A DNA stretch of 36,406 nt from Spirochaetes bacterium ADurb.Bin218. Lineage in GTDB: Bacteria > Spirochaetota > UBA4802 > UBA5550. The stretch covers positions 1 through 36,406 of the forward strand of contig MWCI01000030.1 of NCBI GenBank assembly GCA_002069965.1, in the 5' to 3' direction. A model generated the notes under the pieces. The model ran no database searches. It was not told where the DNA came from and saw only the letters and a list, made by a program, of their open reading frames with translations. The position numbers and the translations under genes are program-made. Of this stretch, positions 8,279 through 10,025 are shown in pieces; the stretch's first letter is position 1; each line of letters opens with the position of its first letter.

Positions 8279-8572
8279 TTATTGTTTTTTAAGATTTCTT
8301 TTTGTCATAAAAACATAGTGCTTTATATAGGGCTGAAGACCCTCAGGGAATATTGAAGTATCTGTGCCTTTTGGATCCCCCATAAGTTGATCTATATCAT
8401 TTTTGGGAACATCCTCTTCACATGCGTCAATAAGCATCTTAAACCTTTTTAAGACCTCATTATCAACAGCATCTATTGAAAGCTTATTCATATGATTGTA
8501 TAATTTCATAAGATTTGTTTTTTTTGCGCTTTTGTTGACTTTTTTGGTTGTGCTCTTTGCCTTTGGCGGCAT
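8279..8572 (-). CDS. Small Lys-rich hypothetical protein heading the moaDE operon
   Basis: 97 residues, not recognised. The N-terminus is strongly basic (PPKAKSTTKKVNKSAKK); the rest is predicted helical with acidic patches, ending in KRNLKKQ. There is no signal peptide, transmembrane segment or Cys pair. A strong AAAGGAGGGG site precedes the ATG by about 7 nt, so it is probably real. It is the first gene of a three-gene operon with moaD and moaE. The basic tail suggests nucleic-acid or ribosome binding, which is only inference. Confidence 0.7.
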   Translation of the reverse strand: MPPKAKSTTKKVNKSAKKTNLMKLYNHMNKLSIDAVDNEVLKRFKMLIDACEEDVPKNDIDQLMGDPKGTDTSIFPEGLQPYIKHYVFMTKRNLKKQ

Positions 8573-8763: not shown

Positions 8764-8785
8764 CTTCTACCTCAGATGGTAGAAG
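8764..8785. repeat. 8-bp perfect hairpin, role unclear
   Basis: CTTCTACC (8764-8771) and GGTAGAAG (8778-8785) flank a 6-nt loop. There is no T-tract on either side, so it does not look like an ordinary terminator. It could be part of a structured leader, an operator, or chance. Confidence 0.35.
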
Positions 8786-8928
8786 TATAATGTTATCACT
8801 GAAAAAGATTCTAAGGTATTATTAGAAAAATAATACACTTTGGAGCTACTGCAAATTTTTATCAAAAAACAAAGAAAAATTTTAACAGACAACAAAGTTA
8901 AATAGATAAAGAAAGCTGATAAATTTTT

Positions 8929-8955
8929 TAAAAGAATATCCACTTCTGCCGATAA
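8929..8955 (+). promoter_or_regulatory. Consensus sigma-28 (FliA) promoter
   Basis: TAAA (8929-8932), exactly 15 nt, then GCCGATAA (8948-8955): a full match to the flagellar sigma-28 consensus TAAA-N15-GCCGATAA. The predicted start of transcription is near 8962, about 24 nt before the ATG of the zinc-ribbon microprotein, on the same strand. Confidence 0.85.
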
Positions 8956-8985
8956 TATGAAAAATACATTTCAGGGGATAGATTT

Positions 8986-9117
8986 ATGAAATGTGCACGC
9001 TGCGGAAAAGATATAAATAAATTAAATCACTTCTATATACCTATAAAAGGAAGAAAAGAAGGTATAAGATATTGCATTGAATGTGCAAGAGAAGAAAAAA
9101 TAGTTACTCTTGTATAA
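8986..9117 (+). CDS. 43-aa zinc-ribbon microprotein under flagellar control
   Basis: The start is ATG with AGGGG about 8 nt upstream. The protein has two Cys pairs: CARC near the N-terminus (Cys3, Cys6) and CIEC (about residues 32-35), separated by a basic/aromatic linker, and a short charged tail. This is a minimal treble-clef/zinc-ribbon layout for binding one metal ion. No named family is recognised. A consensus sigma-28 promoter points at it, so it should be made with late flagellar and chemotaxis genes. The ABC-transporter operon starts 44 nt downstream with no terminator between them. A regulator or adaptor role is possible; function unknown. Confidence 0.8.
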   Translation: MKCARCGKDINKLNHFYIPIKGRKEGIRYCIECAREEKIVTLV

Positions 9118-9161: not shown

Positions 9162-10025
9162 ATGAAAAATCGCTTACTTATAATTTCAAGTTTTGTAGTA
9201 CTATACCTGATTTTAATTTTGCTATCGTGGATAGTCAACTATAACAAAACAGAAAAGCCCTATGGCTATAATGAATTTCATAAGGTAGTGTCTCTGTCAC
9301 CATCTGTCACGCGAATGATATTTGATCTGGAAGAAAAAGAAAGGCTCATTGGAATTACATCAAACTCCATAGACGAAAAATGCAATATTGAAATTATAGG
9401 AAGCTATGTATCCTTTGACATAGAAAAAATTCTAAATCTCAAACCAGATATAGTCATAACTACAGAGGATGAGTTAATTGTAAATAAAGCCAATATACTT
9501 CGCTACTTAGGCATAAATGTATTGGTTCTTCCATCAGGAAAAGATTTTGATTCCATTGAACAAAACTATATCACACTTGGTAGTTTATTTAACAAAAAAG
9601 ATCTGGCTATAAAAAAAATTTCCTTATACAGGGAAATGCTCCATTTAATAAAAAAAACTCAGCAACAGGGTAAAGTAGCATTTCTTGTATCTGGAAATCC
9701 CATCATTGTAGCAGGTGGTAGATCTTATATCTCAAAAATACTTAAAGATGCTGGAGCTATCAACGTATTTGAAAACAGTGACAGACTATACCCTCTAATA
9801 ACACTTGAGGCTTTACTGACTAAAAAGGCAGATGCAGTTATAGTAATGCTTAATTTTGATGCTAATTATCTAAGAAATACTTTGAACGACTTTAAATCTG
9901 TTTCTTTTATTTACAAAAATAATATTTTTGTTTCAGATGATAAAAACTTGCCATATTATACTCCCCGTGATTATGTGGAATCTGTTAAGAAAATTTCAGA
10001 ACTCATAAAAAACATAAAAAAATGA
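9162..10025 (+). CDS. BtuF/FepB-type substrate-binding protein, membrane-anchored
   Basis: 287 residues. KVVSLSPSVTRMIFDLEEKERLIGIT and IEKILNLKPDIVITTED are the typical first-lobe motifs of class III periplasmic binding proteins for cobalamin, haem or siderophores. The second lobe has GRSYISKILKDAGAINVF and ITLEALLTKKADAVIV. The N-terminus is one hydrophobic helix (about 5-24) with no Cys lipobox and no clear cleavage site, so it seems held in the inner membrane by an uncleaved anchor. There is no clear ribosome-binding site. It overlaps the permease gene by 4 nt (ATGA). The ligand cannot be told from sequence. Confidence 0.88.
   Translation: MKNRLLIISSFVVLYLILILLSWIVNYNKTEKPYGYNEFHKVVSLSPSVTRMIFDLEEKERLIGITSNSIDEKCNIEIIGSYVSFDIEKILNLKPDIVITTEDELIVNKANILRYLGINVLVLPSGKDFDSIEQNYITLGSLFNKKDLAIKKISLYREMLHLIKKTQQQGKVAFLVSGNPIIVAGGRSYISKILKDAGAINVFENSDRLYPLITLEALLTKKADAVIVMLNFDANYLRNTLNDFKSVSFIYKNNIFVSDDKNLPYYTPRDYVESVKKISELIKNIKK

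Follow-up and report, generated by a model that had tools for sequence, protein, structure and literature searches.

The 36,406-nt stretch analysed here (the window; contig 30 of 160 in a 3.03-Mb genome) carries a gene for a 43-residue microprotein that belongs to a single-copy family spanning its spirochaete order. The gene is preceded by a sigma-28-type promoter, a class that upstream sequences support as conserved, and its product is predicted to fold as a zinc finger. The likely sigma-28 regulon of this uncultured order thereby gains a strongly conserved microprotein family that matches no curated model. The features are:

8279..8572, minus strand: divergent 97-aa gene of unassigned family, the commonest neighbour (21/30 loci examined)
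8929..8932, plus strand: TAAA, -35 element of a promoter of sigma-28 type, from sequence; the same element is found at flgM in relatives
8948..8955, plus strand: -10 element GCCGATAA, from sequence and the CCGA core upstream of 33/35 distinct orthologues
8961..8963, plus strand: predicted transcription start region, placed by the distance normally seen from a sigma-28 -10
8973..8978, plus strand: Shine-Dalgarno-like AGGGGA, 7 nt 5' of the ATG; a comparable purine-rich site is found in orthologues
8986..9117, plus strand: gene for the 43-aa microprotein, a predicted zinc finger (ORF, orthologues, dN/dS, predicted fold)
9162..10025, plus strand: periplasmic-binding protein gene (Peripla_BP_2, BtuF-like), 44 nt 3' of the microprotein gene

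The ORF comprises 43 codons with the stop ending at 9117 (MKCARCGKDINKLNHFYIPIKGRKEGIRYCIECAREEKIVTLV). Its cysteines form two pairs, C3-x2-C6 and C30-x2-C33, separated by 23 residues and not by the roughly 25 given in an earlier, sequence-only reading of this DNA, which had correctly described a small ORF with two CxxC pairs and a ribosome-binding site. A strong single copy was found in 33 of 39 close genomes, the own genome being included in the search. Of 296 genomes sampled across the phylum, 46 belong to its own order; the gene was present in 39 of these (four of the seven without it are only 66-73% complete), and none of the 250 genomes outside the order had a convincing homologue. A pattern scan covering the genomes of 84,980 species returned 29 loci, 28 labelled as spirochaetes and one as 'uncultured bacterium'. 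Relatives in a public collection are uncultured Spirochaetota or metagenome bins, and the spirochaete host taken for granted by the earlier reading is supported. The scan of viral contigs found no relatives and PHROG matches were weak only; a phage origin was rejected.

Orthologues were 56-79% identical and almost always exactly 43 aa long, the single gap in a 29-row alignment being the deletion of one residue in one row. C6, C30 and C33 were invariant in this alignment, as were H15, P19, G26, R28 and A34, while C3 was replaced by R in one row. Among close pairs dN/dS was 0.02-0.14, computed with partial codons removed. Together with the conservation of orthologues, these values identify the ORF as a coding gene under strong purifying selection. 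Judged by comparative sequence evidence, the microprotein is a real gene of a single-copy, order-wide family, and the lack of conservation in relatives that the earlier reading had allowed for is not what was found.

AlphaFold2, run on the family alignment, gave a model with a pLDDT of 88.5 and a pTM of 0.60. Strands were predicted at residues 15-19 and 26-30 and a helix at 31-36, with the second CxxC reaching from the end of strand 2 into the first part of the helix. From the order of these elements the predicted fold is named a treble-clef zinc finger, a likely metal-binding fold as had been anticipated. Foldseek returned no PDB fold match at E 0.001 or better; the best neighbours were zinc fingers of eukaryotes and zinc-containing ribosomal proteins, and the ClpX zinc domain ranked lower. 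No Pfam or NCBIfam cut-off was reached. With fewer than 70 residues, two CxxC pairs and little else, the protein resembles the one-domain zinc-finger micro-proteins of Haloferax volcanii, HVO_0758 among them, which likewise stand alone; several of their deletion mutants affect swarming or biofilm (PMC6562870, PMC10716476). The HVO_0758-type proteins differ in being archaeal and outside sigma-28 control, and similarity to our family was limited to one member of the alignment that weakly matched the HVO_0758 models. The microprotein is a new family within this known kind, with a sigma-28-type promoter.

Several further families of small zinc proteins were compared and membership in each was rejected. 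The C4 finger of DksA/TraR (PF01258; YbiI) shares a CIxC-type second knuckle with the microprotein, and 19 of the 29 family members gave weak matches to PF01258 (best E 3e-4), but the window protein scored 19.1 bits against a cut-off of 24.9 with 12 residues matched. The DksA/TraR coiled coil, which enters the secondary channel of RNA polymerase, is missing from this 43-aa protein, whose model has no long helix. The N-terminal zinc-binding domain of ClpX is also a small treble clef (2ds7 in the Foldseek list); the comparison gave a Foldseek E of 3.0 and an hhalign probability of 2.6%, and the microprotein, unlike ClpX, stands alone without an AAA+ domain. BsaP, the biotin synthase auxiliary protein (NF052237), is likewise small with four cysteines and was weakly matched by 23/29 members, but the window protein reached 19.3 bits where the cut-off is 39, and no biotin gene was seen nearby. 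MsrB-like and other PDB sequence matches had E values of 0.02 or worse and were driven by cysteines and a short GLRYC string.

On balance we think it fairly probable that the microprotein is a one-domain C4 treble-clef zinc finger of the sigma-28 programme that acts as a binding adaptor. Judging from the promoter, FliA-RNA polymerase would make the protein when sigma-28 is active. The finger is predicted to fold round one Zn ion via C3, C6, C30 and C33. As a non-enzymatic adaptor it would dock on one conserved macromolecular partner through the LNH[FY][FY][IV]P strand, the C-terminal helix and the [IV]xTL[IV] tail, and docking might tune gene expression or protein handling in a motile, envelope-remodelling state. 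The very small size makes an enzyme unlikely, and conservation along nearly the whole length fits docking on a fixed partner; it is this conservation, with the predicted fold, that points to an adaptor. A predicted zinc finger that is conserved, consists of a single domain and has a regulated promoter to itself offers a compact, testable target for work on very small proteins in bacterial motility programmes.

Were the partner RNA or the ribosome, the microprotein might adjust translation, for example of flagellar messages. This is unlikely, even though the window protein is net positively charged, the Foldseek neighbours include zinc-finger ribosomal proteins such as L24e (weak, E about 1.5) and flagellin 5' UTRs contain likely CsrA hairpins, as no fold or sequence match was significant and treble clefs are diverse in function.

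A sigma factor as the partner is suggested by CsfB of Bacillus subtilis, a small anti-sigma factor made up of one C4 treble-clef domain with a C-x2-C ... C-x2-C arrangement (PMC5890618) and nonpolar residues directly after its helix (PMC5890618, PDB 5n7y). The microprotein resembles CsfB/Gin in being a small finger of this type with nonpolar residues after the helix, in its predicted order of elements and in its hydrophobic tail, and its own sigma-28 promoter would suit an anti-sigma factor that binds FliA or another sigma-70-family factor. Made by FliA-RNA polymerase, such a protein might, though this is quite improbable, provide negative feedback or keep programmes separate. CsfB/Gin proteins are longer, have a shorter loop between the cysteine pairs and inhibit sporulation sigma factors; hhalign of the microprotein against a single CsfB sequence was not significant (probability 0.8%, E 0.074), and membership in the CsfB/Gin family was rejected for lack of significant profile similarity. 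In addition, FlgM already serves as anti-sigma-28 factor in 38/39 relatives tested, and no sigma gene was found in the conserved neighbourhood of the microprotein. We treat CsfB and the haloarchaeal one-domain zinc fingers as working analogues, not demonstrated relatives. It is doubtful that the microprotein, made by FliA, attaches in CsfB-like fashion to RNA polymerase or one of its sigma factors alongside FlgM as a second, zinc-finger checkpoint on the sigma-28 programme; if true, such a checkpoint would set when one spirochaete order switches between motile and envelope-building states.

The preferred adaptor reading places the microprotein under sigma-28, and the promoter in the window is a full match to the sigma-28 consensus, as had been stated: TAAA-N15-GCCGATAA at 8929-8955 has a spacer of 15 and no mismatches. 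In the 3.03-Mb genome the perfect pattern has two occurrences and the reversed-pattern control none; within the window this is the only sigma-28 site with fewer than two mismatches. The earlier distance of 24 nt to the ORF holds when counted from the predicted start near 8962; from the end of the -10 to the ATG at 8986 it is 30 nt. FliA is encoded in the genome (293.9 bits against a cut-off of 189.6), as is a FlgM orthologue. The promoter is of the same class as those of the spirochaete FliA (sigma-28) regulon, such as that of Treponema denticola flaB2, which has the -10 CCGATAA (PMC9481697). The literature searched described no small zinc-finger member of spirochaete FliA regulons.

The assignment to the sigma-28 class is strengthened by relatives. 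In 29 of 30 of them flgM, a textbook sigma-28 gene, has a promoter of TAAA or TTAA, N15/16 and a CCGATA-type -10 that deviates by one or two bases in three of the 29; in the one remaining relative an assembly gap filled with Ns lies at the site. The CCGA core preceded the microprotein in 33/35 distinct relatives and was present in 33/113 control upstream regions, which were those of neighbouring genes. The relaxed form T[AT]A[AT]-N15/16-NCCGA[ACT][ACT], a pattern drawn up after inspecting these sequences, preceded 20/35 distinct orthologues versus 1/113 controls (Fisher p 2e-14, kinship among genomes ignored) and occurred in at least one member of each of the seven families of the order. Because the counts ignore kinship and the pattern is post hoc, the control regions, and not the p-value, carry the argument. 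The strict flgM-type site was found in only 3/35. Most relatives have CCGAA or CCGAC and/or TAAT at the -35, and some of their flagellin genes have sigma-28 sites relaxed to a similar degree. Use of sigma-28 in relatives may thus be weak or replaced, and the perfect consensus in the window is partly peculiar to its own genome. Taken together, the promoter class is supported as conserved, while its strength probably varies across relatives.

That the promoter is not sigma-28 at all, and the conserved CCGA belongs to a sigma-70 promoter or to the site of another regulator, seems distinctly unlikely. A sigma-70-like TTAAAA-N17-GATAAT with 9/12 positions matched does overlap the site at 8928-8956, and strict sigma-28 sites are rare in relatives. 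Sigma-70-like matches around the microprotein promoter were, however, at chance level (6 found versus 3.8 expected), a sigma-70 -10 would not keep the CCGA seen in nearly all relatives, and the site matches flgM promoters at the correct spacing.

With the promoter taken as sigma-28, the regulon was mapped by a pattern search for sites at promoter distance with at most one mismatch from the consensus. In the own genome such sites lie ahead of flgM and of genes for a CheY-like receiver, for envelope proteins of the LysM and LysM-M23 types, and for RlpA-like, SPOR-like and OmpA-family proteins, among others; the CheY-like, RlpA-like, SPOR-like and STAS-like proteins and one LysM protein were assigned by reading the sequence, without a Pfam match. 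Envelope hydrolases are among these genes, as are partner-switch genes for an RsbW-like kinase (HATPase_c_2) and the STAS-like protein. The sites before envelope, STAS-like, RsbW-like and CheY-like genes are at loci L001, L004, L012, L013, L021, L136, L137, L145 and L161. The picture bears a resemblance to the sigma-D autolysin regulon of Bacillus. Since envelope and partner-switch genes share these sites, sigma-28-type control is no evidence for a purely flagellar role, and to judge by the sites sigma-28 here probably has a role broader than flagella. The analysis indicates that in this order sigma-28-type sites also serve envelope and partner-switch genes. Because almost the whole phylum has FliA-type matches, the joint occurrence of FliA and the microprotein carries no information.

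For this reason the sequence-only reading went too far in tying the protein to motility as a regulator or an assembly factor, and gene order also speaks against that tie. The most lasting neighbours are non-flagellar: the divergent gene of about 100 aa, lysine-rich and found in 35/39 relatives, and, next in frequency, moaD and moaE, beside which the divergent gene lies in many loci. The divergent protein had no Pfam match, and no sigma-28 site was found upstream of its gene at any of 21 loci, and sigma-28 control of it was rejected. In a sister genome (G018, about 90% complete) the divergent gene is followed directly by a btuF-like gene with no CxxC ORF between them. This species, which lacks the microprotein at the syntenic place, retains FliA and FlgM, so the microprotein is probably not essential to flagella, although at that completeness a copy may lie elsewhere in the genome.

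It is very improbable that the microprotein serves the BtuFCD-type transporter encoded downstream, whether as a leader peptide or as an accessory such as a metal sensor for uptake: no terminator was found in the 44-nt gap and adjacency to btuF (btuFCD) is kept in 8-9/30 loci, about a third, but the next gene is convergent or unrelated in the remaining loci, the sister genome has the transporter beside the divergent gene without the microprotein, no riboswitch or structured RNA was found in the window (Rfam), and a leader peptide of btuF as such was rejected because the downstream gene is not conserved.

Four further features were noted. A perfect hairpin, CTTCTACC-TCAGAT-GGTAGAAG, lies at 8764-8785 between the two divergent genes and has no terminator tail. 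Most flgM promoters carry TTGACA within the sigma-28 spacer (ATTAAAGAATTGACAAANNNNCCGATA...TAGA; L106-L135, the own genome being L106, in the last 60 nt before the start), which suggests from the sequences that a sigma-70 and a sigma-28 promoter overlap at flgM and that this arrangement is conserved throughout the order. At flagellin loci (L163, L182, L186 and others) TWTAAANG-type units recur at a spacing of about 10 bp roughly 100-170 nt upstream of the start, as in CTTTAAATGACTTTAAATGACTTTAAATG, possibly as stacked UP elements or curved DNA. Finally, flagellin 5' UTRs (e.g. L165, L171, L174) contain hairpins with AGGA or GGGA loops (CTATCAAGGATGATAG) together with AAGGAGG at the ribosome-binding site; these are shaped like CsrA sites, which makes post-transcriptional control probable here.
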